In this document: positions 1 through 28,166 of the stretch, piece by piece
How the letters are laid out: the number at the start of each line of letters is the position of its first letter
Numbering within the stretch: position 1 is the stretch's first letter
Origin: a virus
Strand: one strand, 5' to 3'
Length of the DNA stretch: 31,700 nt
IMG/VR virus record: IMGVR_UViG_3300004095_000006
Coordinates: 1-31,700 of that record
Notes under the pieces: generated by a model
The model's input: only the letters and a program-made list of their open reading frames with translations
Told to the model about the DNA's origin: nothing
The model's database searches: none
Position numbers and translations under genes: made by a program

Positions 1-3000
1 AAGCTTGGGGATGTACCACGCTTACTAAAGTTCATAGCTTCCAAAGAGGCCAAGGTAGCTTCCATATCGGACAAACCTTGTTTGATAAAGCTGTTGTAAG
101 AAGTTACACGAGAAGAAGCATCGCCCATCATAGCTACGTGGTCTAGATAAGCCATCGCTTTGCTCCAGCCGGGTTTGCCGTCTATAACTTGCAGCATAGC
201 TTTTTGCATAGAATCTGAAGCGCCACCAATAACTTGACCGCCCAAAATACCACGCTTCTTCAATAACAACTCACCCTCATTAACCCCACGTAGCATAGAG
301 CCTAACTGCTTCATGTTATCAATAATAGGAATCGAATCAGCGCCAGTAGTAAATGCGTTTGATAAAGAGTCACGAGAGATTTGACGGACAGCGTAAGCTG
401 GGTTCCTTGTAATAAAGCTGCGGAGCATACGTGCTGGGATACCAGCCATCTTAACTAGATTAGGAACTGAAACCTGTACGCCATCCATACCTTTTACAAG
501 TAAGTCTGCGGGAATACCAATACTGTCAGTATCCACCACTGCATAGTGATCTTTGCCATCCAACATAAAGCGAATAGTAGAATCGTTAGCAGGACCTTTG
601 CCTTCATAGATACCGGAGCCAAATTCTTTTCCATCTCTGCCTTTCTTCTTCTGTAACAAGCCTAGTTCTCTCAAACTAAACGCTACGTTACGAGTAGCTA
701 GGTTACGCAATGCCATATCTGTTAGCATGCGTGTGTTTTGCAAAGAGCTAGTAAAGACATCAAGGATAGCGGTATCGCCGCCGACTAACTCATGTAGGTA
801 AGGCTGATCTGTAATATTACCTATGTTAACTGTTGTAGCTCCGCCAATATCTAGCATCACTGAACCATCAGGGCGCACACGATAGAACGGCACATAGTCT
901 TTAGCTTCTAGTAACTTAGCGCCAACTTCTTTAGAGAGGCGACCTGTCTTAACGGCAAAGTCAACCAAACCTTTGTTGTAATCGTTGTAGATTTTAGCGG
1001 CTTCTTCAAAAGCTGCTTTGGTTTGTGGGTCAGAGTTAATGCGGTTTACGACTCTATCCAGCATTGGCTGTGTAACTGATTTGTCAAAGTTCAATGTATC
1101 CAAACCAACACGCTGAGCACGTTTAGCCGCTAAGTAGAATGTAAACAATTGATTGGCAGCATCGGCATCACCAACGTCAGCTTTCTTAAGTGCTTGGGAA
1201 ACCTTTAACAAACTAGCGCCGTCTTGGGATTCTAGGATGGTTTCTTTCTTACCATCAGCACGTTTTCTTTCCACTAAATCAATAGGGCCACCCGAAGCAA
1301 TCTGAGCAGTCCAGTTAAGGTTTTGGTCGTGCATACGGAGGTAGTACATTAACTGTGTGCCAACTAGCGAATCTTTAAACTTCTCCGCTAATTTGTTAGC
1401 TACCTTCTCTACAGGAGCAAAGCGGTCAATGTAACGTGTACGGAAAGCTAGGCGGTTTTTCTCGGACAATATACCTGTAGGCTTCATAATATCGCTAGGT
1501 ACTTTCATGCCACTAGCGGCTGCTTTAATCTTGTCCTTAGTGGTTTGATTCTTAGCAACAACTTTAGAAACGTCAGCCCCCAAATCAGCAAACTTACTGT
1601 TGTACTTAGGCTGGCTACGGAACTTAACTTCACCATTAGCCTCTACGCTAGCGCCGGGAGAAACCTTAAAGTCTTCACGAGCATCACGCAATAGCTTGTA
1701 AACGTCGTTGGTGTTAATGCGTAAATCAATACCCATCTTGCGTAAACCTGCACGCAACGCACCCATCAGGGCTTCAATAAACTCTTTAGCCTTACCAATA
1801 AACTCTTTAGTTGGGCGAGCTTCTGCTGTGTGCGCAATCATTTCTGATACTGCTGCAGCTTGAGCTTCTTCTTTAGTCTTGCCGGAACGTAAGGCAGCTA
1901 AGTAAGCGCCATAGGCATCGTCTTGAACACCTAACTTGCGTGCCAACTCCATTACACCGCCTTCTTGCTTAATTACTTTAGCGGTAAATGCAGCCATGCC
2001 TTCTTTGCCTAGAATACCCTCAACCCCTAAGTGACCTGTAACTTCGTGGGCAATGGTCTTTTCAACATCTTTAAGGTCTGCGTGGTTATTGGCTACAACT
2101 ACAACTTTGCCATTAGCAGTAACGAAACCACGAATAGTATCAGGGTTATAGCCACGCTCACGAATGTAGGCTTTAATTGGCTCAGGCAACTTCTCCATCA
2201 CAGTAAGCTTCAAGCCTTCCGGTAACTTAACACCGTCAACAACTTTCTGAACTTCTGCGTGGCTTAGACCTTCACCGCCATGAGCGGATTCTTCACGTGC
2301 ACTAAAGCCATGTTTTAAACCTTCGGATATTTCCATGTAGTCTTCAAAACCTACATTAGCCTCACCAGCGTATTCTTTTTCAGAACGCCTTGCATCTGCA
2401 ATCTGCTTAGCCGTCTTTTCATTAGCTTTAGCGGTAGCTTTTTCCGCTGCGCTTGGCTTAGCTTTAGGGGCCAGTTTTGCTGGGCGATTGCCCAATACTT
2501 CGGCTGTACGCATAGCTTGACGTTGAACAACGTCTCTAATATCTTTATCTTGTGTAAGACTTGTACCAGCACGTTCTTTCTGTGCACGTTTAAGGGATGC
2601 TTGTTCTTCTGCAGCTTCACGAGCTTTGGCTCTGCCTTCTTCCGCTTTTTGTGCGGCTGTCTTAGCTGGCTTCTCAGTAATAACCCTAGCAACAGTCGGA
2701 GCTTCTCTGCCAAACTTGGCACGCTCAGTAACAACAGTCTTAAGGCGCTTACTTGGTAATGCGGCTAAACGCTCAGCAGCTAATGTCTCGGCTTTACGTT
2801 TCTCAGCAGTTTGGCGCTCACTTAATTTCTTTAGGTCGCCTTCCATTTGCGCTACGATAGCTCTAGCTTTATCGGCATAGGCTTTGTTTTGTAGGGCAGC
2901 TTTAGATGGGGCTTCCATCTTAGCGAGTCTACGTTCCATGCTTTGTAGGATAGCTTTCTCTGTTTGGATATTAGCTTCTACAATTTTGTTAGCTTCTGCG

Positions 3001-5870
3001 TGTAGCGCGTCAATTTGAGCTAAGCGTTCTGGGTGAGCTTTATCCTGCCAAATACGTTCAGCCATACCACGAAGCTCTGTAACTAATTTGTCAGCGTTAA
3101 TAACATCGAAAACAAACTGACGCTGCGCTTGCACCTGACTCATAAACTCTTTGTCTAGTACTGGGCTACGTGCCTCAATAGCACGTTGCTTTTCAAAAGC
3201 TGCATCAGCTTTCTCTTTAATCTGCGCTAGTTTTTCTTCCGCTTTACCTTGAGCTTCTTTAAACTTAGCTGCCTGAGTATCCACAAAACGCATGAAGTTC
3301 TTATGGGTAGCACGAACAGCAGCGATAGGCTCTAATTGTTTTTCGCCAAACAAACTATATTGGTCTGGGTTTACGCCTTCAGGTTCTTTAAGTTCTGCTT
3401 TTTCTTTCTCAGCGGCAATACGCTCATCTTCACGTTTACCAGCCGCAACTTCTTTTTCAAGCTGGCGAATCTTTTGTAGGTTAGGGTTCTTCTTAGCTTT
3501 CTCTGCTTTGAGCATCTGCGTTGCATCACGTTCTTGTGATGTAAAGAAAGGCTGTACTCTAGTTAAGTTTCTAGCAGCACCTTGTGTATATTTGTTTTTA
3601 ATGCCATCAATTTGTTTTTCTAGATAGCTAACTTCTTGGTTAGGGGCAACCCTTAGTACACCAACATTTTTATTGGCAACAACTTTATCAAGCGTATCTT
3701 TTAAATCAAAGGCAAGTTTAAGCGCTTCGTCTGTGCTTAGTTCTGATTGTTTATTGGCAGCACGAACTGCATTAACTTCACGTGTTGCTGCTTCAATATA
3801 GCCAGCCGTAGCATCTCTAGCCTTAGCTTCAATACCGGAACGTAACGATGATGCGGTTCTTGGGTCGGCACCGGCTAAATAACGACCTGCTTTTAGATCA
3901 TCAACAGCATCTAGCAAAGTATCATGGGCAGTGGCTTGGTCTGCCTTAGCAGTTGCTTGCTCACGTTCGGGTTGTGGTTTAGCTTTATCTGTTTGAGCTT
4001 CTGCCAAACGCTTTTGTAATGCGCCCATACTAGCAATAGCTGTAGCTTTTTCTTCTTCAGTTGTAGCATTAGCATAGTTGCGTTGTTCTTCAGCAATAGC
4101 ACGCTTAACTCTTTCTACTCGAGCGTTAGCTTCTTCGGCTGGGGCAGCGCTCTTTAAGCCTTTTTCAATCTGTGCGTGGCGAATCTTCTCAACAATGTCG
4201 TTAACTGCACGCTCATCAGCACCGGCTGCATGGGCTTCTTCTAGCTCACGCAAACCTTCTTGGTATTTATCTAATGGGCCGGGGGCTTCTTTTTGAGGTA
4301 GTTGTGCAAACAAATCTTGTTGTTCTTGCTGACGTTGGGCGGCTTGTTGCTGCTTAGCCTGATTGGCCTCTGCCTCCATCTTGGCTGGTTCAAACAACTC
4401 AAACTGCGTGCCAGCTTTAGACAAGTCATCAATCTTTGTCTGAATACCTTTAATCTCTGTAGCTACTTTGTTAATCTTTTCAAAGTCGCCTGTAACACCA
4501 CCAGCTTTTTGTAGCTGGCCAATCTTTTGTTTTAGCTTGCCACGAAGCTCAGCCATCTGTACGTCAGGCGATTGCTCAACTGGGCTAATCTTCTTAATGG
4601 CTTCTTGGCTTGTCTTGTAGGCAGCCTGCATTTGCTGCAAGCGTGGGCTTAATGTGGTGATAGCATCTACGTTGCCTTGCTCAGCGGCTTTAGCAACTTG
4701 CTCTTGCAGTGTATCTACTTCGTTCTTTAGTACTTGATGTTGACGCAAAGCAGAAGCAGTTTGCTCTTGCTGTTGTTTAGCCGCATCTTCTTCTTGCTGT
4801 AAACGCTCAGCTGCAGTTAGTGTGCTTGGGGCATTAGGGAGTGGAGATACTTGTTCAGCGGCGGGTACAGCTTCACCTGTAACCTGTCCTGTTTCAGCCT
4901 GTTGTTTTTGAAATTCTTGTTGTGCTTCTTGTTCTTGCGCTACTTTTTGAGCTTCTACATCTCGTTTTGCTTGCGCCTCTTGAACAACTTTTTGTGCATC
5001 TGCACGAGTACCATGAACACCAAATGGAGAAGCCACTACACCTAATGCAGCGCCACCAATAAAGTTGTCTAAGTATTCTTTACGTGCTTGTTCATCATTT
5101 AAATTTAAACCAGCCTGTAAACGCTCGAAGAACTGTTGACCTGCTTCTGTAGCGCCTTCAATACCACCGATCTTTGCACCGCCAGCAATATACTGTCCTG
5201 CTGTCTTTAGCGTACCAGCCTTAATAATGTTTAAAGCTTCTTGTTCTGTAAGCTCTCTGCCTATAGAAGAAAAAATCTTTTGTACACCCGGAATGTATTT
5301 AAACCCTACTACGTCTAATGCAGCTTGTGGAATTGCGGCTGCAGCAGCTTTGCCTAAACTAGCTTCTTCTAAAGACTTGCCTTCCTCCATCTGACGACCA
5401 AGGTTAGAACCAGTAAACTGTAAACCTGAAGCAATACCAGCAGCACCTGCGCCAACCAAAGCAGGAGCACCACCCAATGCAGCAGCACCACCGGCAATAA
5501 GAGGGGCAGCCATATAAGGAACAGACCCAGCAGCTGTTTCTTTAAGCTTTTGGAAAGGAGATTCAGTCCAGCTTTTTTCTGTAGGCGCTAATGCAGCAGC
5601 TTTTTCTTTTTGTTCTTTATAGTATTTCTCAGCTTCGGCTTGGTCCATTAAACCAGTTTTGCCAGCCAATGCTCCGAGTTCGCCCTTGATACTTTCTAGG
5701 CTAGACTTAAAGGCGCCTGTAGCGCCTGTGTCTTCTTTGGGTTCTTCTCTTGCAGGAACAGAAGCCTTTTGCTGTGTTTTTAGATAGTTCAACCCTTCAA
5801 GAGACATACCGTCTAGGTTGTTGCTGCGAAGCGCCTTTAGGTCGTCAAGCGACAGTCTATCTAAGTCCAT
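1..5870 (-). CDS. Giant polyvalent phage protein with HExxH metallopeptidase motif (3' end off window)
   Basis: The frame is open from the ATG at 5868-5870 to the left edge, giving at least 1956 residues with the C-terminus missing. Visible order: a short N-terminal helix region; an Ala/Gly-rich hydrophobic segment at about 115-155 with further Gly/Ala-rich segments to about 290; a long, highly charged Gln/Lys/Glu/Ala coiled-coil region to about 1200; HEVTGH at 1275-1280 with a later SEMIAH Glu at 1343 as a possible third zinc ligand; and a C-terminal region (from about 1400) resembling the large polyvalent protein-associated domain LPD38, judged from its NPAYAVRQISRDS and NFSKRG stretches. 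The last gene of the leftward operon visible here, it follows two other Ala/Gln-rich virion-type genes. By position and size it probably is an internal protein ejected with the DNA, with peptidase activity as inference. The start has only a weak AGAAAG ribosome site. Confidence 0.85.
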   Translation of the reverse strand, partial: MDLDRLSLDDLKALRSNNLDGMSLEGLNYLKTQQKASVPAREEPKEDTGATGAFKSSLESIKGELGALAGKTGLMDQAEAEKYYKEQKEKAAALAPTEKSWTESPFQKLKETAAGSVPYMAAPLIAGGAAALGGAPALVGAGAAGIASGLQFTGSNLGRQMEEGKSLEEASLGKAAAAAIPQAALDVVGFKYIPGVQKIFSSIGRELTEQEALNIIKAGTLKTAGQYIAGGAKIGGIEGATEAGQQFFERLQAGLNLNDEQARKEYLDNFIGGAALGVVASPFGVHGTRADAQKVVQEAQAKRDVEAQKVAQEQEAQQEFQKQQAETGQVTGEAVPAAEQVSPLPNAPSTLTAAERLQQEEDAAKQQQEQTASALRQHQVLKNEVDTLQEQVAKAAEQGNVDAITTLSPRLQQMQAAYKTSQEAIKKISPVEQSPDVQMAELRGKLKQKIGQLQKAGGVTGDFEKINKVATEIKGIQTKIDDLSKAGTQFELFEPAKMEAEANQAKQQQAAQRQQEQQDLFAQLPQKEAPGPLDKYQEGLRELEEAHAAGADERAVNDIVEKIRHAQIEKGLKSAAPAEEANARVERVKRAIAEEQRNYANATTEEEKATAIASMGALQKRLAEAQTDKAKPQPEREQATAKADQATAHDTLLDAVDDLKAGRYLAGADPRTASSLRSGIEAKARDATAGYIEAATREVNAVRAANKQSELSTDEALKLAFDLKDTLDKVVANKNVGVLRVAPNQEVSYLEKQIDGIKNKYTQGAARNLTRVQPFFTSQERDATQMLKAEKAKKNPNLQKIRQLEKEVAAGKREDERIAAEKEKAELKEPEGVNPDQYSLFGEKQLEPIAAVRATHKNFMRFVDTQAAKFKEAQGKAEEKLAQIKEKADAAFEKQRAIEARSPVLDKEFMSQVQAQRQFVFDVINADKLVTELRGMAERIWQDKAHPERLAQIDALHAEANKIVEANIQTEKAILQSMERRLAKMEAPSKAALQNKAYADKARAIVAQMEGDLKKLSERQTAEKRKAETLAAERLAALPSKRLKTVVTERAKFGREAPTVARVITEKPAKTAAQKAEEGRAKAREAAEEQASLKRAQKERAGTSLTQDKDIRDVVQRQAMRTAEVLGNRPAKLAPKAKPSAAEKATAKANEKTAKQIADARRSEKEYAGEANVGFEDYMEISEGLKHGFSAREESAHGGEGLSHAEVQKVVDGVKLPEGLKLTVMEKLPEPIKAYIRERGYNPDTIRGFVTANGKVVVVANNHADLKDVEKTIAHEVTGHLGVEGILGKEGMAAFTAKVIKQEGGVMELARKLGVQDDAYGAYLAALRSGKTKEEAQAAAVSEMIAHTAEARPTKEFIGKAKEFIEALMGALRAGLRKMGIDLRINTNDVYKLLRDAREDFKVSPGASVEANGEVKFRSQPKYNSKFADLGADVSKVVAKNQTTKDKIKAAASGMKVPSDIMKPTGILSEKNRLAFRTRYIDRFAPVEKVANKLAEKFKDSLVGTQLMYYLRMHDQNLNWTAQIASGGPIDLVERKRADGKKETILESQDGASLLKVSQALKKADVGDADAANQLFTFYLAAKRAQRVGLDTLNFDKSVTQPMLDRVVNRINSDPQTKAAFEEAAKIYNDYNKGLVDFAVKTGRLSKEVGAKLLEAKDYVPFYRVRPDGSVMLDIGGATTVNIGNITDQPYLHELVGGDTAILDVFTSSLQNTRMLTDMALRNLATRNVAFSLRELGLLQKKKGRDGKEFGSGIYEGKGPANDSTIRFMLDGKDHYAVVDTDSIGIPADLLVKGMDGVQVSVPNLVKMAGIPARMLRSFITRNPAYAVRQISRDSLSNAFTTGADSIPIIDNMKQLGSMLRGVNEGELLLKKRGILGGQVIGGASDSMQKAMLQVIDGKPGWSKAMAYLDHVAMMGDASSRVTSYNSFIKQGLSDMEATLASLEAMNFSKRGTSPS

Positions 5871-17260: not shown

Positions 17261-18556
17261 TTATACCTGATACCAGATGTCACCATTAGAACCGCCAGAT
17301 GGGGCTGAAGAAGAAACTGTGCGAGAGCCGTAGCCATTAGAACCGGTATTTGTAGTAACTCCGCTAATATTAATACTCCAAGTGCCAGAAGCACCTGTAC
17401 CTGTTAATGTAGGAGCAACATTGTTAAAATTCAAAGAAGTTAAAATATACCCAAGCGATGTACTATCAACTTGTAAAAGAGTATTAGAACCATTCCATCC
17501 AATATAAATCTTATTTCCTGTCATTCCTGTACCGCCGCCTTGCTGGACAGGAGTAAAGCCTTGAACAAGAGAAGCATTACCTGCAGTAAGACTTGCGGCA
17601 GTGCCAGTTAAGCCAGTACCAGCGCCACTAAACTGGGTTGATGCAGTAATGGTTGTGCCTGATATAGTTGTTCCAGAAACAGAGCTGCTAAATGTTCCAG
17701 TTGTGCCAGATACTGCGCCTGTAAACGTACCTGTTGTTCCAGATACCGCGCCACCAAAAATACCGCTTGATCCTGATACGCTTCCAACAGCAGCTAAGTT
17801 ACCACTAAAGCTACCTGAGCCTGAGGAAAGACTTGTTAATCCGCTAATTGTGCCGCCAGTAATGTTGACGTTGTTAGCATTTTGGGTTGACATTGTGCCA
17901 AGACCCAAAGCACCTGTAGCTGCTTGCACAAACGCTGTTGTAGCTAGTTGGGTTGTATTAGTTCCTACTGCAGCTGTTGGAGCTGTTGGGCCTACACCAA
18001 ATGATGCTGTACTTGCAAAAGTTGCAGTACCAGTAAATGAAGAAGTACCTGTTACAGAAAGGTTGCCGCCTACAGTTGCGTTACCAACAACAGTAAAGTT
18101 GCCAATAGCTGTATCGGTATTAGCGTAAAAGTTAATTCCATCAGACCAAATATATGCTTTAGCGCCGGCAGGAATAGTCGCACCTGTACCGGCTTGTACT
18201 GTGTTGCCAATAATTGTGCTGTTATAAAAAGTGGCTGCGTAAGAAGTGTTATTCCAAACTATATAAGTTTTACTAGCAGGAGGAGCAAAAAGGTTAAATG
18301 CAGCAGACACAGTACCAGCATTTAGCTTTAACATACCAAAAATAGATTGATTTAATGCTGCGTTGCTAGAAGGTCCGTTTACGTATGTAAGGACTTGGTT
18401 ATTTGAAGTCGGGGTTATTGTTACTGCTTGATAGCCGGCAATAGCGTTTTCAAATACGTATTGAAAGTTGCCGTTAGTAGTATTACCCCACGTACCTGCT
18501 TGGTCTCCAGAACCAATTAACTCGGTACGCAATAATGATGAATATGTAGAAGCCAT
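17261..18556 (-). CDS. Tail fibre protein
   Basis: 431 residues. The N-terminus MASTYSSLLRTELIGSGDQA followed by GTWGNTTN is a typical attachment domain of fibres in aquatic phages. The region 75-140 is a beta domain (APPASKTYIVWNN and on). From about 150 there are Val/Gly/Thr-rich repeats (GNFTVVGNATVGGNLSVTGT), then the fibre repeat motif AAVGTNTTQLATTAFVQAA at about 195-213, and short SGTTGTF-type repeats from about 260. The C-terminus is NGSNTLLQVDSTSLG and a Ser/Gly-rich tail ending in DIWYQV. There is no S74 chaperone. Downstream by 3 bases comes the glycine-rich adhesin, a natural partner as fibre tip. Confidence 0.82.
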   Translation of the reverse strand: MASTYSSLLRTELIGSGDQAGTWGNTTNGNFQYVFENAIAGYQAVTITPTSNNQVLTYVNGPSSNAALNQSIFGMLKLNAGTVSAAFNLFAPPASKTYIVWNNTSYAATFYNSTIIGNTVQAGTGATIPAGAKAYIWSDGINFYANTDTAIGNFTVVGNATVGGNLSVTGTSSFTGTATFASTASFGVGPTAPTAAVGTNTTQLATTAFVQAATGALGLGTMSTQNANNVNITGGTISGLTSLSSGSGSFSGNLAAVGSVSGSSGIFGGAVSGTTGTFTGAVSGTTGTFSSSVSGTTISGTTITASTQFSGAGTGLTGTAASLTAGNASLVQGFTPVQQGGGTGMTGNKIYIGWNGSNTLLQVDSTSLGYILTSLNFNNVAPTLTGTGASGTWSINISGVTTNTGSNGYGSRTVSSSAPSGGSNGDIWYQV

Positions 18557-18578: not shown

Positions 18579-19646
18579 TTAACATTGTTGGTCAGAGTTA
18601 ATCGGTGTCCAACCCGCGCCTTCTGTTGTATCTACTTCTGTCCAAACCACAGTAGGGGAATACCCTAATGGGTAGCTACTTAATTCTTGAACGGTAATGC
18701 TTCCAGCCATAGGTACGCCACCAAAAGTAAACCCACCAAAGTCAGCGACTTCCACAACAGTAATTGCGGTTGTACCCCAGTTTGCACTTTGGTCATCATT
18801 AATTTTAAACCATCCAATAGCACATTGGCTATCAGTATATACAATAACTTCCGATACTGTAGGTCTAAATATGGCGTTGGCAGCTAGGGTTTCTGCTATG
18901 GTTACAGCTTCTGCCACAAACGGGTTAAATGACGCTGGGCCAGTCTGAGTTTGGGTAAGGGTCAGCGCTTCATTAACGGTGGTGTAAAACGTAAAGCCAG
19001 AAGTCATTGTCTCGGCTATAGTCATTACGTCGGCCAAAGACCCAACAAAAGCTACGTTTACAGTAACTTGATCTGTAATAGTGGTTGTTTCAGCTACAGA
19101 AGCGTTAGTTCCCCATGCCCCTGCTTGGGTTGTCGTAAATGTGGCGGTTTCAGCTTGAGTGGCGTTTGTTCCCCATGTACCGGCTTGGGTAGTAGTTAAC
19201 GTCATTGATTCGGTTAAACTAGGAGCAAAAGCAGCCTGCGCTGATTGAGAATCCGTAAATGTGGCGGTCTCAGAATTAACCCCTACAAAGGCAGCTTGAA
19301 CTGTTTGTGCGTCTGTTAGGGTTGTTGTTTCTGCGTAGGCACCTACAAAGTTTACTTGGGCGCTTTGTGTTGTAGTTAGAGTCATTGACTCAGCTTGAGC
19401 CCCTACAAAGTTTACCTGTGCGGAATATAAATCAGCTAAAGAGTAGTTGTCGGCATCTGTACCAACAAAGTTAAACTGCCCTACATCTTGATCTGAAAAT
19501 GCAAAAGACTCAGCGTAGTTACCTCCAAAAGCAACTTGCGCTGACTGAGTGTCTGTTAAAGTGGTTGTTTCAGCGACGCTGTCTATAAAGAAAGCGCCGC
19601 CAAGTCCGGCAAAGGTTAGTTGTGAAAACGCCTCGCCAGCAAACAT
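18579..19646 (-). CDS. Protein of thirteen 20-residue repeats, probable fibre or tail appendage
   Basis: 355 residues. After 24 residues that look like a degenerate copy, residues 25-284 consist of thirteen consecutive repeats of exactly 20 residues. The consensus is roughly (A/S)E-x-x-T-(L/F/I)-T-(D/T)-x-Q-(S/T)-A-x-x-x-F-(V)-G-x-x, with a near-invariant acidic residue at position 2. No enzyme motif is visible. The constant register suggests a beta-solenoid or a regular beta fibre. The C-terminal 70 residues (FGGFTFGGVPMAGSITVQEL and on) are unique and end in a Cys. It lies between two fibre genes with a 1-base gap to the preceding 77-residue gene, so a receptor-contact or spacer role is inferred. 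Confidence 0.75.
   Translation of the reverse strand: MFAGEAFSQLTFAGLGGAFFIDSVAETTTLTDTQSAQVAFGGNYAESFAFSDQDVGQFNFVGTDADNYSLADLYSAQVNFVGAQAESMTLTTTQSAQVNFVGAYAETTTLTDAQTVQAAFVGVNSETATFTDSQSAQAAFAPSLTESMTLTTTQAGTWGTNATQAETATFTTTQAGAWGTNASVAETTTITDQVTVNVAFVGSLADVMTIAETMTSGFTFYTTVNEALTLTQTQTGPASFNPFVAEAVTIAETLAANAIFRPTVSEVIVYTDSQCAIGWFKINDDQSANWGTTAITVVEVADFGGFTFGGVPMAGSITVQELSSYPLGYSPTVVWTEVDTTEGAGWTPINSDQQC
18795..19574 (-). repeat. Thirteen tandem 60-base coding repeats
   Basis: 780 bases, exactly 13 times 60, encode residues 25-284. The copies are clearly related at the protein level but diverged in DNA. There is no length variation between units, so insertions and deletions inside units seem to be selected against. 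Confidence 0.88.
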
Positions 19647-19647
19647 A

Positions 19648-19881
19648 TTACTGAACTACTTCTACATCAGCCTTCTCAACTGGCGCATTTAGTTTGTCTT
19701 TTAAAAGCTGAACAAACGCTTGCTTACCGACACTAAGTTGGTCCAAATTGAATTGAGATGAAGCTATTTTGCGGTCTAGGTCCGCAATGTGATTAACAAG
19801 AAGTTGTTGTTCTTGTGACATATCTTCAAAAAAATACTCTACATCGTCGATAGTAATGGGGGTCTTTTTATCTTGTCCCAT
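19648..19881 (-). CDS. Small coiled-coil phage protein (DUF6447-like)
   Basis: 77 residues. The N-terminus KKTPITIDDVEYFFEDMS-x-E is the signature of a small conserved protein family near fibre genes of marine and freshwater phages, which I recall as DUF6447. The remainder is a predicted helix or coiled coil (QLLVNHIADLDRKIASSQFN, then LKDKLN). Its function is unknown; a fibre chaperone or accessory role is possible from the neighbours. The gene has an AGGAGAAAG ribosome site and is followed, after 1 base, by the repeat protein. Confidence 0.75.
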   Translation of the reverse strand: MGQDKKTPITIDDVEYFFEDMSQEQQLLVNHIADLDRKIASSQFNLDQLSVGKQAFVQLLKDKLNAPVEKADVEVVQ

Positions 19882-19934: not shown

Positions 19935-20291
19935 TTATTCTAATGGAGGTATTGGCTCTACCCAAGGTAATGGGGGCTGTGTTACTGGTGGGTTTTCTAA
20001 TAGTGCAACTTGATTTTCCACAGTAGTTTCCGTAGCCATTTGATTTACGCCATTTTCCCAACACCAACCAACTACCTGCTCTTGAGTTAAATCTGCATAT
20101 GGTGTAAATGAACCACCTGAGGTTGGCTCAGGAAATGAGCAAGAACCATATACAGATGATGTATTGGGAGGGGTTGCAGTATCAGTACCAGTGCAGCGCC
20201 ATCCAGCAGTTAAAACTACTTCCTGTTCACCAGCGATAGGCTGTGTGGATACTTGCATCCAGTCGATTGTCCATGCGATTGTTGTTGCCAT
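19935..20291 (-). CDS. Conserved phage protein near tail fibres (DUF7936-like)
   Basis: 118 residues. The start MATTIAWTIDWMQ, the strand pattern EVVLTAGWRCTGTD, the middle FTPYADLTQEQVVGWCWENG and the Pro-rich end (NPPVTQPPLPWVEP) match a small family found beside fibre genes in many myo- and podovirus-type phages, which I recall as DUF7936. It probably folds as a small beta domain with one helix. Its function is unknown. It lies 13 bases after the long fibre gene and is followed by a possible weak terminator. Confidence 0.75.
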   Translation of the reverse strand: MATTIAWTIDWMQVSTQPIAGEQEVVLTAGWRCTGTDTATPPNTSSVYGSCSFPEPTSGGSFTPYADLTQEQVVGWCWENGVNQMATETTVENQVALLENPPVTQPPLPWVEPIPPLE

Positions 20292-20304: not shown

Positions 20305-23300
20305 TTAAACGACGTTATAAACGCCAGACATAATAAAATCTGTTCCGGCGGTTAAATTTGCTGGGGTAATTGTTGTTTCAGAAGTGTTGTTTGATTTATA
20401 TATCTCAATAAAATTACCAACAACACGCCCGTAATCTGGCCCGTTTGTTGACCACCCATTCTTATACCCTACTTGAGCTGCTGGATAAAAACCAACGGCT
20501 CCTGCGTTTGCACTATATGGGAGACCTGATAATCTAAGAACTCCGCTACCACCAGATACTGTATTAACAGTAATCCTGCAAGTAAAATATACAACGGCTC
20601 CAATTTTTGTATATGTTCCACCTTGAGCTGTATATGTAACTGTTGGGTTAGAACCCGAAGCCGTCCAAGTTGGGGTCCAAGTACCTTCTTTATAATCGTC
20701 TAAACAGTTTACATCTGTTGACGCAGACTGAGACGCCGGGAAAGTAATACCTACACCATTAGCATTACCATTACCACCTTGAAGTGACATGTTACCACTA
20801 GTATTAAATGCAAATCTATAGGTAGGCCCTGTTGAGCCGTCAGTAATAGCTGGCATAGCGCATACACTAAATATACCAGCGCTATTAACTAAAGCTATTG
20901 GGTTACTATTAGTTGAGTCAAAAATACCAATACATGGATTAGTATTAGCTGTTGTATGAACTAAAAAACCTTTACCAAAGTTATTTCCAGACCAACCTCC
21001 ACCTTGAGTGTAAACGTCTAATGTTCCAACTGGGCTATTTGTAGCAATACCTACAAGACCAGAAGACAAAATAGTTAACCTAGTTGCACCAGCTGTTGCA
21101 TCAGCAATAAAGAAATTACCAGCGCCAAGCCCAGAAGTGTTGCTAGTTGATAGCAAACTATACGCTTTACCACTTGTGCCAGTGTTATTAATTGTTAAAC
21201 CAGCTTCGTTACCTGTGTCATTAATTCTTGCTGTAGTTGGGCTGTAGCCGCTACCACCTGTATTTGAAACATCTAACTTGTACAGGGGGTTACTGTTACC
21301 AATACCTACGTTACCAGAAGAGCTAATGCGCATACGTTCTGTGTCAGAAGAACCATTGCAAAAAATTAAATTGGATGAAGGGTCTGCTTGAATCCTAGCA
21401 GTGTCAGTTCCATTTGTTTGAAATGTATAATATGACGTAGTTCCAGTAGCTGAATTTACTACAAAAGCAGAATAACCAGTAGTAGAAGTTAAAGTTAAAA
21501 CAGTATTTGTTGAAGTAGCTAAATATCCGCAACCAACTCCAGCGTAAGTTCTAAATGAAATTTGTGCTTGATCAAAATAACTAATACCATTACCTTGATA
21601 ATCAAATGTGTATTTAGCCTGTGGGCCAACTAAAGCCGATGGTGTTACACCAGTTCCAGAAGAAACATTAAGCAAAGCTGTTGGGCTAGTAGTACCAATA
21701 CCAACATAACCGGTAGAGCCACTAATGGTTACTCGCTCTGTACCAGCGGTCATTAAGGCAAAGTTGTTTGTGCCATATGATCCAATAGAAATACCATTTG
21801 CACCGCCAGGAGCAGCTGTGTTGGTAGAGCTATTAACTCTTAATGCGCCATAAGCACCGTTGGCATCATTACCAAGCAATACACCCATAGTGGCAGAACT
21901 ACCAGCATTGGCGTTATTTAAAGATATCCAATTTGCGGAGTTTGTGTTTGTATTTACTACTACCTTATTTCCTGGGGCAAGAGTTCCAATACCTACGTTA
22001 CCAGAACTATTAACAATAAAATCTGGTGTAGTAGTTCCTGTACCACTTAAACCAATACCCGTGTAAGAACTAGAGCTACCAAAGGCTAGTTCAATGTAAC
22101 CTCTATTACCACCAGGGCTAGTAAATGAAGCATCTACAGCTGGCTGAATACGCCAAGCACTTGTTGTCCAATCTGCGCCAGCAACAGTTCTATGCGCAAC
22201 AAAAAGCAAACGGATATTATTACCAGCATTAGCATTAAACTCTGAAACATATTGCATTGAGTCAAGAGTTGTTCCAAGAGCGCCACCATACGCTAATAGC
22301 GCAACAGCATTTGCAGTGCCATTACCAGTTGAATTAATACTTACAGTTGCAGTTGGAGCTGTAGTTCCAATACCAACTAACCCACCAGTGGTGAGACGCA
22401 TCTTTTCCGTGTTATTGGTAATAAAAGTAAAATCATGGTTGGATACTGTACCGTGGAGACCAGCTGTGCCAATAGAAGCATAGTTAGTATTAACTGATCC
22501 ACAAAATGTGCTAAAACTAGCTGAACTAGACCCTGATGCAGCAACTACTCTGTTTGTTGAATCTCCACCGGGACTATTAGTTCCAACACCTACGTTACCA
22601 GTAGAGGTAATGCGCATCTTTTCAGAGCTACTAGTGGTTGTAGCATTAGTAGTTGTAAACGCAATATATGTGCCACGAGCAGTTGAAGTCCAAAGTTCTT
22701 CAGCATATATACCCATACGACCACCAAGAGAAGGATTACTCACACTATCGTAATATCCTTGACCTTGGAAGTCTGCTAAATATTGGTTAGCTGCTACAGC
22801 CCCTTTTGAAGCATAACTACCGCTGTAACCACGTCCACCAAGAACAGGTTGTGTAACAGAAGCAACAACAACACGCTCAGTGTTGTTATCTCCATAAATT
22901 AATAATGTTGGAGAGCCAGCTGGTCTAACTGCTGTAGTTGGCGATTGAATTGTTAATTGGTCAGATGGTGTTGTTGTATTAATTCCAACAAAACCAGTTG
23001 TATCAATACGCATACGCTCTACAGCTGTTGTTGTTCCAGTTGGCGTAGTTGAAAAAGCAAGAAATGCAGAAATATCTGTATCAGAAGTATAAGTACCTAC
23101 GGTAGAAGAAACATAAGCCAATCCTCTGTAGTTTGTACCGCCATATCCTACAAATTGTAAAGTTCCAAGAACATCTCCAGATGCAACAGCAGTAGGAGAT
23201 GCAAATGTTCCTCTTGCTTTTCTGATTGATACAAATGAATTATTTGCGTCATTCCCGTATCTTGTTACCCTCATGTTTGCGCCAGCATCACCATCAACAG

Positions 23301-23694
23301 ATAAGATTGCAGATGTTGCGTTATATACAGTAAGAGGGGCAACTGGCGCGCCAGTACCAATACCTACATAATTGTTTGCATCATAATAAACAGCTTTTTC
23401 AGATGGGTAAGTTAAAAATACATCTTTAGTACCAGTAGTAAAGTTAACTAATGCGCCAGAATTAGAAGAAGCTAAAACAGTTGTACGAGCAAGGGTAGGA
23501 CCAGTAGTTGAGTATGTACCAATACCTACTTCCCAGTTTGGGCCAGATTGATCTGCAATAGTGTAGTAGCAAATGTTTGTGTTACCAACAACTGAAAACG
23601 GCTGGTATCCAGTAACAGCGCCCAATAGCGTAGCCGAACCTGTACCCGTTACGGCTGTGGTTTCTCTTACTCTATCCTGTAGGACTAAACTCAT
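20305..23694 (-). CDS. Long tail fibre protein with repeated VGIGT modules
   Basis: 1129 residues. The N-terminus (VLQDRVRETTAVTGTGSATL, then GAVTGYQPF) is a common phage attachment domain. From residue 110 there are eight copies of a G-x-VGIGT-x-x-P-type motif, at about 110, 236, 368, 440, 567, 664, 796 and 881. Most are preceded by an E(R/K)MRI-like strand, marking successive beta-helix or stalk modules of variable length. The C-terminal about 135 residues start with CLDDYKEGTWTPTW, a widespread receptor-binding beta-sandwich start, and end FIMSGVYNVV. There is no S74 autochaperone triad segment. It is the longest fibre in the window and the first gene of the host-recognition block. Confidence 0.85.
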   Translation of the reverse strand: MSLVLQDRVRETTAVTGTGSATLLGAVTGYQPFSVVGNTNICYYTIADQSGPNWEVGIGTYSTTGPTLARTTVLASSNSGALVNFTTGTKDVFLTYPSEKAVYYDANNYVGIGTGAPVAPLTVYNATSAILSVDGDAGANMRVTRYGNDANNSFVSIRKARGTFASPTAVASGDVLGTLQFVGYGGTNYRGLAYVSSTVGTYTSDTDISAFLAFSTTPTGTTTAVERMRIDTTGFVGINTTTPSDQLTIQSPTTAVRPAGSPTLLIYGDNNTERVVVASVTQPVLGGRGYSGSYASKGAVAANQYLADFQGQGYYDSVSNPSLGGRMGIYAEELWTSTARGTYIAFTTTNATTTSSSEKMRITSTGNVGVGTNSPGGDSTNRVVAASGSSSASFSTFCGSVNTNYASIGTAGLHGTVSNHDFTFITNNTEKMRLTTGGLVGIGTTAPTATVSINSTGNGTANAVALLAYGGALGTTLDSMQYVSEFNANAGNNIRLLFVAHRTVAGADWTTSAWRIQPAVDASFTSPGGNRGYIELAFGSSSSYTGIGLSGTGTTTPDFIVNSSGNVGIGTLAPGNKVVVNTNTNSANWISLNNANAGSSATMGVLLGNDANGAYGALRVNSSTNTAAPGGANGISIGSYGTNNFALMTAGTERVTISGSTGYVGIGTTSPTALLNVSSGTGVTPSALVGPQAKYTFDYQGNGISYFDQAQISFRTYAGVGCGYLATSTNTVLTLTSTTGYSAFVVNSATGTTSYYTFQTNGTDTARIQADPSSNLIFCNGSSDTERMRISSSGNVGIGNSNPLYKLDVSNTGGSGYSPTTARINDTGNEAGLTINNTGTSGKAYSLLSTSNTSGLGAGNFFIADATAGATRLTILSSGLVGIATNSPVGTLDVYTQGGGWSGNNFGKGFLVHTTANTNPCIGIFDSTNSNPIALVNSAGIFSVCAMPAITDGSTGPTYRFAFNTSGNMSLQGGNGNANGVGITFPASQSASTDVNCLDDYKEGTWTPTWTASGSNPTVTYTAQGGTYTKIGAVVYFTCRITVNTVSGGSGVLRLSGLPYSANAGAVGFYPAAQVGYKNGWSTNGPDYGRVVGNFIEIYKSNNTSETTITPANLTAGTDFIMSGVYNVV

Positions 23695-26587: not shown

Positions 26588-27342
26588 CAGCCACCTCCAA
26601 GGAACATCCTGCGAGGAACAAATCTAACCGGGGCTTTTTCTCTATCTTCATCAGCAGCAAGCTGGAACTGCTGTTCGTAATCCGCCTTAAGCATCACACT
26701 ACGATTTGGGTCTACGCCATCTAACTTAATAGACAGGTAGTAAGCCAAACCGGCGACCATAGCATTTAAGAATCGGAACGGAATATCTTGTGTATTAACG
26801 CCATTGCCAGCATCTTGGATGCGGCGTAAACGCCAGTAAACAAACGTATATTGTTGTGAACCATCTGGTGTAGGCCAAACTGTAATCTTAGGCGCATCAA
26901 TGCCTGTAACCGGGTCGGTACCGTTAGGTCCGGGAGGTGGGTATTTTGCTCCAGACATGCGTTGAATCCAAACTTGAATAGGACGACCCTGACTCAGTTT
27001 ATTTGGGATTGTGGCGTATGTTGAAACGCTGATGCGGCTAATTGTTATGTCAGTCTGTGTTGCTTGATTGCCAGCGTTGGTACGAATCTGGTGTTCTAAA
27101 AGGTCGATAGTGTCGATTGGTAGGTCGTATGTATTAACGCCTTGGGTCAAAGTAATCTGTCCCTGCTCAATCGTCCACATATTAATGCCACGATTAGCCC
27201 ACTCAATAGTCAACAGATTTAAAGAACGACGCGCCGTACGCAAGTCGTAACCAGACCTCAGCTCTTTGCCGCAGCGCTCAAACGCTTCTTCGACAATGTC
27301 TGATAAATCTAAATTAAACGCTGATGCGCCGGCAGTAGTCAT
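26587..27342 (-). CDS. Neck/tail accessory protein (P22 gp4-like)
   Basis: 251 residues. The helical N-terminus (LDLSDIVEEAFERCGKELRS, then YDLRTARRSLNLLTIEWANR) followed by a beta segment (IEQGQITLTQGVNTYDLP) and the C-terminal helices (FRFLNAMVAGLAYYLSIKLD, YEQQFQLAADEDREKA) match the head-tail connector or tail accessory family typified by P22 gp4. It would add a ring below the portal. Overlaps at both ends with the genes on either side (positions 26587 and 27342) show tight coupling. Whether it or the 309-residue protein forms the first ring is not decided by the sequence. Confidence 0.72.
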   Translation of the reverse strand: MTTAGASAFNLDLSDIVEEAFERCGKELRSGYDLRTARRSLNLLTIEWANRGINMWTIEQGQITLTQGVNTYDLPIDTIDLLEHQIRTNAGNQATQTDITISRISVSTYATIPNKLSQGRPIQVWIQRMSGAKYPPPGPNGTDPVTGIDAPKITVWPTPDGSQQYTFVYWRLRRIQDAGNGVNTQDIPFRFLNAMVAGLAYYLSIKLDGVDPNRSVMLKADYEQQFQLAADEDREKAPVRFVPRRMFLGGG

Positions 27343-27563
27343 TACTTCGCCTTTTTAGTTGTTTTCTTAACAGCAGGTTTTTTAGCTGCCGGTTTTTTTG
27401 CCGCTGGTTTAACCTTACGGGTAGTGGCTTTCTTTACCTGTGGGCGTTTCTTTTTTGCCGGTACAGGGAAAGGCCAAGCCTCAACAGCTAGTTCAACTTT
27501 TTCGAAAGTAACTTCTTCTTCCTTCTTACCAAACAAACCTAGAATCCAGTCGATTAATCTCAT
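27342..27563 (-). CDS. Small protein with amphipathic helix and histone H1-like Lys/Ala/Pro tail
   Basis: 73 residues. The first 12 (MRLIDWILGLFGKK) form an amphipathic, possibly membrane- or protein-binding helix. An acidic stretch follows (EEEVTFEKVELAVEA). Residues about 35-73 are almost all Lys, Ala, Pro, Thr and Val, with PAAKK-PAAKK-PAVKK repeats like the tail of histone H1 or bacterial H1-like DNA-binding proteins. Its start overlaps the stop of the 59-residue gene (ATGA). Nucleic-acid binding is likely by composition but not proven. It is the last of a run of small basic genes ahead of the neck genes. Confidence 0.6.
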   Translation of the reverse strand: MRLIDWILGLFGKKEEEVTFEKVELAVEAWPFPVPAKKKRPQVKKATTRKVKPAAKKPAAKKPAVKKTTKKAK

Positions 27564-27739
27564 TTCTTCAAGCCCTTTAAGGTTTCCGCAAGCCTAGCCC
27601 GCTTACCGATCTTGCCCGGTTTCTTTGCAGCTGCGGCTAGTTTGCTTGACGGAATCTTTTTGTCTTTAGCAACGCCTAATTCAGCCTTTAATGCGCCGGG
27701 TTTCTTAATTGCTTTTTGAATCCAGTTCTTAGTAGCCAT
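27560..27739 (-). CDS. Small Lys-rich conserved phage protein (59 residues)
   Basis: A short gene of 59 codons filling an otherwise empty 180-base stretch. The protein starts MATKNWIQKAIKKPGALKAE and continues with LGVAKDKKIPSSKLAAAAKK and a GKRARLAETL segment. The KNWIQxAIKKPGAL start, followed by KIGKRARLAxTL, is shared by many tiny phage proteins. Its ATG overlaps the upstream stop (TAATG at 27737-27741) and its TGA overlaps the next ATG (ATGA at 27560-27563), which supports it strongly. It is very basic and probably binds nucleic acid or acidic virion surfaces. Function unknown. Confidence 0.8.
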   Translation of the reverse strand: MATKNWIQKAIKKPGALKAELGVAKDKKIPSSKLAAAAKKPGKIGKRARLAETLKGLKK

Positions 27740-27969
27740 TATTTCTTCTTTGCAGTTTTAGCTGATTTAATAAAAGCCTCTTTAGTAGGCGCGCCCTTAG
27801 CTACAACAGGACGCATCTTTTCACCAGAGCCAGCTTTAATACGTTCTTGCTTCGCGTGAATGTTTGCATACAGCCCAACTTTGCCACCCTTTTTTAATAG
27901 GACAGCAGAGCCTGCATTCTTAGGAATTTTTGCAGGGTTAGTTGCGCCCATTCCACGGGAAGCTTTCAT
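27739..27969 (-). CDS. Small basic phage protein with LKKGGKV motif
   Basis: 76 residues, strongly basic. The start MKASRGMGATNPAKIPKNAG, the LLKKGGKVGLYANIHAKQER segment and the GSGEKMRPVVAKGAPTKEAF segment are typical of small proteins of aquatic podovirus-like phages. The tail ends in four lysines within SAKTAKKK. The gene is flanked by TAATG overlaps on both sides. No domain assigns a function. It belongs to the run of small basic genes between the capsid-proximal and neck genes. Confidence 0.7.
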   Translation of the reverse strand: MKASRGMGATNPAKIPKNAGSAVLLKKGGKVGLYANIHAKQERIKAGSGEKMRPVVAKGAPTKEAFIKSAKTAKKK

Positions 27970-28166
27970 TACTTCTTAGCCTTAGCCATGCCGCCGCCAC
28001 ACATTTTTTCTACGTGGTCGTCGTGAATCATATGACCTGCAGCGTGCTCACCAAAAACTTCTGCATGTGGCTTGTGACCAGATGCGTGCATTTTTAATGA
28101 CTTAGCTAAAGTCTCGTGTTTAATTTTTTCTACGCCAGCTTCGAGGGGTGCGTGATCCATTTTCAT
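27969..28166 (-). CDS. Small histidine-rich phage protein
   Basis: 65 residues with nine histidines (5, 17, 27, 31, 34, 41, 45, 48, 51) and one cysteine at 56, in a helical-looking sequence (VEKIKHETLAKSLKMHASGH and on). The C-terminus MCGGGMAKAKK resembles the GGG motif of its neighbours. The His spacing (mostly 3-7) could coordinate metal. Starts and stops overlap the adjacent small genes by 1 and 4 bases. Function unknown; the composition is unlike most of its neighbours, which are Lys-rich. Confidence 0.65.
   Translation of the reverse strand: MKMDHAPLEAGVEKIKHETLAKSLKMHASGHKPHAEVFGEHAAGHMIHDDHVEKMCGGGMAKAKK

Follow-up and report, generated by a model that had tools for sequence, protein, structure and literature searches.

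Thirteen diverged 20-residue units form a repeat array between conserved ends in a protein of an aquatic phage tail-fibre module

What kind of protein keeps thirteen repeats of exactly 20 residues when the repeats themselves have diverged, and what does it do for the phage that encodes it? The question arises from a gene in IMGVR_UViG_3300004095_000006, a partial virus record of IMG/VR, which we analysed over positions 1 to 31,700 (31.7 kb, hereafter the window). The window comes from a short-tailed, freshwater-type phage with structural and lysis genes aboard, among which Pfam and PHROG profiles identify an SU10-type adaptor (PF24175), a 1129-aa tail fibre, an endolysin, a short tail fibre and a stabilisation-type virion protein (PHROG 3287). 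By this last protein, the nearest named phages are DSL-LC04 from Dishui Lake (40% identity), cyanophage MinM2 with its near-identical records (31%) and the SAR11 phages HTVC027P/HTVC023P (28-29%). At one end of the window lies an open-ended ORF of 1956 aa (3-5870), whose residues 90-513 weakly match the virion RNA polymerase PHROG (E 9e-4); it probably encodes an internal virion protein. Amid the structural genes, 27342-28166 holds four small overlapping minus-strand ORFs of 73, 59, 76 and 65 aa. Three are very rich in lysine, as in KKPAAKKPAVKKTTKKAK, and the four resemble small DNA-binding or head proteins. The window contains no match to known RNA families.

The repeat gene lies in the tail-fibre/lysis module on the minus strand (18579..19646; 355 aa, stop codon included), as defined by its ORF and translation and by relatives in viral contigs. 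A sequence-only reading had reported thirteen exact 20-residue repeats at 18795-19574, a minus-strand stretch inside this ORF whose 780 nt correspond to 13 x 20 codons. In the register used here, which follows the periodicity and a unit table marked by Glu/Asp4, a hydrophobic residue at position 8, Asp10 and Phe18, thirteen contiguous units occupy residues 23-282 (18801..19580, minus strand). No indel separates any two of them, and residue identity at lag 20 reaches 0.275 (z = 12.0 against shuffles), with z ~10 at lags 40 and 60, which bears out the claim of exact periodicity. The copies are as diverged as had been claimed: DNA identity at a lag of 60 nt is 0.44, and mean pairwise unit identity is 31% for amino acids and 45% for nucleotides (maximum 65% and 70%). 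Since the units are only 31% identical on average, the array is old and diverged and not the product of a recent DNA expansion. The acidic residue that the same reading placed at position 2, position 4 in our numbering, is present in every unit (Glu in 11, Asp in 2). Its alternation of Thr and hydrophobic positions was found in the first half-unit, where position 8 is hydrophobic in 13/13 units and is flanked by Thr at position 7 (10/13) and position 9 (9/13). Phe18 is lost in two of the thirteen units, which carry second halves of the TQAGTWGTNA type.

The array is bounded by two conserved ends. The N-terminal cap, recognised by alignment with relatives and by a cap motif in viral contigs, spans residues 1-22 (MFAGEAFSQLTFAGLGGAFFID; 19581..19646, minus strand). 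The family motif is M-F-G-x-x-AFAQ-x-PFA-x-LG, of which the window carries a divergent copy (AFSQLTFAGL), with M1, F2, F7, F12, A13 and L15 in invariant or near-invariant alignment columns. The C-terminal tail (residues 279-355; 18582..18812, minus strand) starts within the last unit at WFKINDDQ, and tryptophan repeats of ~11 residues each follow the GWFKINDDQ block; G278-Q286, which make up this block, are invariant in the alignment together with W290, W335 and W346. From the start of the last unit to WFKI the distance is 16 aa in every ORF listed. In the window protein the tail is interrupted by an inserted stretch (VEVADFGGFTFGGVPMAGS..., within 18582-18800). The insertion is shared by L002 and L039-L042, whose tryptophan tails it likewise splits, and L317 has a comparable stretch, INDIAVFGGASFGTVSFAGA, alongside another array.

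Is this architecture peculiar to one phage? A profile search found relatives encoded by at least 152 viral contigs, of which the best 80 were retained; a single search had earlier given 35 viral contigs. One more contig with a relative was binned with a metagenome-assembled bacterium. Freshwater and marine phages carry the family, which is common in viromes from lakes and the sea. A unit-finding script applied to 67 distinct homologous ORFs (~730 units) placed 641 of 671 unit-to-unit steps at exactly 20 residues, which independently rules out chance, and the remaining spacings are mostly one-residue bulges or a single skipped unit. Full-length arrays of relatives hold 7 to 16 recognised units. 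The unit consensus reads S-[IVL]-T-E-x-x-T-[LM]-A-D-x-x-[TS]-[VI]-x-A-x-F-x-x, and its information content is highest at Glu4 (92%), Asp10 (87%), Phe18 (80%) and Leu/Met8. Among eight close relatives, Glu4 is unchanged at 12/12 orthologous units and Asp10 at 11/12, and median dN/dS is ~0.26, indicative of purifying selection. Because of this ratio and the retention of both acids, we regard the gene as encoding a real protein under purifying selection. No diversifying selection was found at the gene level, dN/dS being 0.27 in the repeats and 0.21 in the caps.

The relatives do not bring a described family with them. No family in Pfam, PHROG, NCBIfam or the PDB sequences covers the repeat protein, in line with the earlier view of an undescribed protein not assignable to a known fibre class from sequence alone, and a search of the open literature for a 20-residue phage repeat family or for the cap peptide returned nothing relevant. 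Likewise, tblastn of this protein and two relatives against 50,697 phage records gave no match, and the link to named phages was reached only via gene order and HMMs of the cap and tail. Several marginal hits were discarded: matches to PHROG 923/15350/25716 (E 0.006-0.3), put down to chance or composition; PDB sequence-profile matches to ATP synthase delta and an autotransporter (E 0.2-0.6); and scattered Pfam matches in relatives (OSCP, ORC6, RAD24, proteasome), which varied from member to member. The repeat family is thus both widespread and unnamed in the resources searched.

We then turned to the gene neighbourhood. The repeat gene stands directly upstream of a 431-aa partner gene (MASTYSS...GTWG; 17261..18556, minus strand), 22 nt apart, and a match to this partner is the next gene in 85 of 88 non-redundant repeat-gene loci. 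Its homologues in named phages are annotated as tail fibre, tail spike or (putative) tail protein. Where a contig was long enough and its genes similar enough for detection, the same gene order is seen again, running from the adaptor through two small genes, fibre, repeat gene and partner to the stabilisation gene. On the upstream side, all on the minus strand, the window has a 77-aa gene (19648..19881; PHROG 21153, a family without assigned function) found only in the closest relatives, a 118-aa DUF7936-domain gene (19935..20291; PF25590, E 1.6e-20) and the 1129-aa tail-fibre gene (20305..23694; 'tail fiber protein' PHROG 18345, E 1e-33, and 9942, E 1e-29). The DUF7936 gene, between tail fibre and repeat gene here, is also seen near the same spot in several relatives. 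In L008, L021 and L035, ORFs of 1283-1644 aa end in the array and tail, and large fused sequences stand in place of the cap; these gave no PHROG match at E 0.01 and no Pfam match above cut-off. The fused sequences look beta-rich, and the L021 ORF begins MATRYWRAGTGTW.

On account of its neighbours, the partner annotations and the fusions, we place the repeat protein in the tail-fibre apparatus, and it is in this sense that the earlier label 'fibre-like' can be retained. It is improbable, in our estimate, that the protein is instead a non-virion product of the late module, secreted or acting within the cell. Endolysin- and holin-type genes do lie a few genes off, here or in DSL-LC04, as such an accessory protein would lead one to expect. 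Against this stand the tight coupling to a tail-like gene and the fusion of the array to large proteins, and also the L320 cap gene, which directly follows a fibre gene whose N-terminal domain is of the same kind as that of the window's fibre.

The cap itself travels beyond the repeat family. A DNA scan for the cap alone found the peptide AFAQ[ST]PFA in at least 120 encoding stretches of viral contigs, and nearly all the matches listed stand at an ORF start. By simple scripted rules, which make the counts approximate, the cargo behind these listed caps is a Glu/Asp/Phe array in ~50, a VTG-type array with a 20- or 22-residue period in ~20 and another sequence in ~15. In L320 (1160-1519), the cap peptide VFGISAFAQTPFASIP heads a charged, probably helical 120-aa protein encoded next to the fibre gene, with head-type genes just downstream; L338, L372 and L387 have 120-aa ORFs like it. 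These 120-aa proteins suggest that the cap is a portable docking peptide.

Named phages show the same exchange from the other side. In DSL-LC04, whose genome is a metagenome assembly (PMC10611076, in the part available to us, does not discuss the repeat protein), and in HTVC023P, a cultured SAR11 Pelagibacter phage, the partner genes are homologous to that of the window (pairwise E 1e-14 and 3e-16), and the gene directly before each has the same layout as the window protein, built on units of ~22 residues. Cap and tail HMMs, built only from the 20-residue family, were run on 963 ORFs of seven named records. Among them, HTVC023P gp68 ranked first with the cap HMM (E 0.0018) and second with the tail HMM (E 8e-5), and DSL-LC04 WJZ48131 ranked first with the tail HMM (E 1.2e-9). 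Gp68 thus has both cap and tryptophan tail in common with the window protein, and WJZ48131 the tail and a loose cap-like motif; in both, the units are of a Gly/Val 'VTG' class and lack the Glu4/Asp10/Phe18 signature. 'Hypothetical protein' is the sole annotation that any named member carries. The two classes even meet within single chains: judged by eye, the last unit ahead of the tryptophan tail is VTG-like in the Glu4-type arrays of L288, L290, L331 and L336, and Gly occupies Glu4's place there. Since VTG arrays have periods of 20 or 22, the superfamily as a whole does not keep to 20 residues. Since cap and tail recur with different arrays, repeat classes have been exchanged between conserved ends, and since caps are shared with proteins bearing quite different repeats, the protein is modular and the array one of its exchangeable parts. 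MinM2 and some other phages of the broad group have the partner gene with no repeat gene directly before it, so the repeat part is also replaceable. This organisation recalls phage tail fibres and spikes, with their conserved short N-terminal end, exchangeable distal arrays and tail-fibre gene cluster; it differs from the usual ones in that the exchangeable part is a repeat array held between two conserved ends, the C-terminal end included.

What fold might the units adopt? In both half-units, hydropathy alternates as it would in two beta-strands: the even positions 2, 6, 8, 14, 16 and 18 have hydrophobic means of +1.0 to +3.0, and the odd positions are polar or close to zero. The AF2 monomer was predicted poorly from an ordinary 20-sequence alignment (pLDDT 50, pTM 0.39). 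With 99 seven-unit blocks aligned in register, the prediction rose to pLDDT 75 and pTM 0.68 and gave a solenoid of two strands per unit, at approximately positions 3-9 and 13-19. AF2 is known to over-predict beta-solenoids for repeat sequences (PMC11795689); this concern is lowered, though still there, because the units are imperfect natural repeats. Foldseek matches of the first, low-confidence model were set aside. The in-register model had no match in the PDB at E <= 0.001, and in a viral library it matched two uncharacterised phage proteins, A0A6J5N9D9 (probability 1.00, TM 0.72, E 0.0017) and A0A6J5M255 (probability 0.91, TM 0.72). Of the beta-solenoid or fibrous stack proposed from the sequence, a regular beta-rich repeat in a tail-fibre module therefore stands, probably as a solenoid, with the fold itself carried by an AF2 model of moderate confidence. 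An array that is intrinsically disordered or amyloid-forming, and not a folded rod, seems very improbable to us. It would suit the Thr/Ser/Ala-rich composition and AF2's bias on repeats, yet nearly indel-free spacing and conserved hydrophobic and acidic positions across very diverged relatives are not expected of a disordered linker, and hydrophobic alternation with near-invariant spacing makes a disordered chain unlikely.

The units could also be beta-structured as a trimeric fibre, a triple beta-spiral or interdigitated beta-helix in place of a single-chain solenoid. Such fibres are known from many phages and from adenovirus, phage fibres being trimeric for the most part; the neighbours here are tail-fibre genes, and alternating hydrophobics fit any beta fibre. 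We nonetheless judge this arrangement unlikely, in that AF2 predicted stacked rungs for the monomer alone and the Gly/Pro turn that defines triple beta-spirals of the adenovirus and reovirus type is missing: in 611 distinct units, Gly makes up 2.9% and Pro 1.6% of residues, with no conserved position for either.

Two known systems of similar repeat length bear comparison. Curlins (CsgA/CsgB) also have units of ~20-23 residues with two strands each, and their N1 and Q7, six residues apart, flank two inward hydrophobics (PMC10192328), much as Glu4 and Asp10, separated by six positions, would bound the predicted first strand with hydrophobics between them. The repeat protein is nevertheless no curlin: acids replace Asn and Gln, the X-G-X-X arc is absent, it belongs to a phage tail module and not a curli operon, and no curlin Pfam match was obtained for it, its relatives or the array blocks. 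Pentapeptide-repeat proteins (Pentapeptide_4, HetL, Qnr) share the 20 residues per coil but have four equal faces in place of the two strands predicted per unit here. The window protein and L004 have weak, sub-threshold matches to the Pentapeptide_4 profile; at 20.4 bits against a Pfam cut-off of 38, with 1 of 99 array blocks matching at E 0.01, we rejected this identity, together with a sub-threshold NCBIfam match to HetL, whose fold matches at TM 0.21.

The units are acidic in composition. Asp and Glu make up 13.2% of unit residues and Lys/Arg 1.8%, so the acids must be handled by cations, by turn hydrogen bonding or by outward placement, and the net charge of this array is -22. As a more specific form of the spacer that we favour, the acids might bind divalent cations such as the Ca2+ of lake or sea water, so that folding or stiffening of the rod would wait until it has left the cell, on the model of Ca2+-dependent antifreeze and RTX solenoids. 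The constancy of Glu4 and Asp10 across the family and among orthologous units would fit such binding, as would the scarcity of basic residues and the charge. In Ca2+-dependent solenoids (antifreeze, RTX), as here, acids stacked along a narrow solenoid would need cations, and the antifreeze members are the exception that tolerates internal acidic stacks (PMC11795689). The repeat protein lacks their sequence motif, any known Ca2+ motif and any family match. Moreover, the fold does not depend on having both acids, since Gly replaces Glu4 in the VTG-like units of chimeric proteins, which suggests a turn corner there, and Asp10 is lost in some arrays (L290, L331). We hold cation binding to be doubtful, if possible.

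Taken together, we propose that the repeat protein is probably a virion-anchored, exchangeable beta-solenoid spacer of the tail-fibre apparatus, its fold resting on moderate model support and its presence in the virion on neighbours and fusions. The short cap would anchor the protein to the phage particle or to a neighbouring fibre. Behind it, the 20-residue units may stack as narrow solenoid rungs, each of two short strands and two turns, with Glu4 and Asp10 forming one acidic ladder at each end of the first strand, close to the turns. The array would thus serve as a stiff spacer, its length determined by unit number, thirteen here and up to 16 in relatives; at the usual beta-solenoid rise of 0.48 nm per rung, thirteen rungs would measure ~6 nm. 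The tryptophan-repeat tail would close the rod and probably dock to the partner protein. Cap and tail are also found with other repeat classes, which makes the array an exchangeable cassette.

A broader reading, which we offer tentatively as a possibility, is that these proteins represent an unnamed, widespread class of aquatic phage tail components in which a standard virion-anchoring cap and a tryptophan tail enclose exchanged solenoid arrays, either acidic (Glu4/Asp10/Phe18) or Gly/Val (VTG) and sometimes both in one chain, the acidic version being a cation-stabilised solenoid unlike any solved structure. If the cap is a general virion anchor, annotators could use it to recognise a tail component of abundant aquatic phages. 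The exchange of arrays between fixed ends would offer a natural test bed for solenoid design, for length control by rung number and for AlphaFold's weakness on beta-solenoids.
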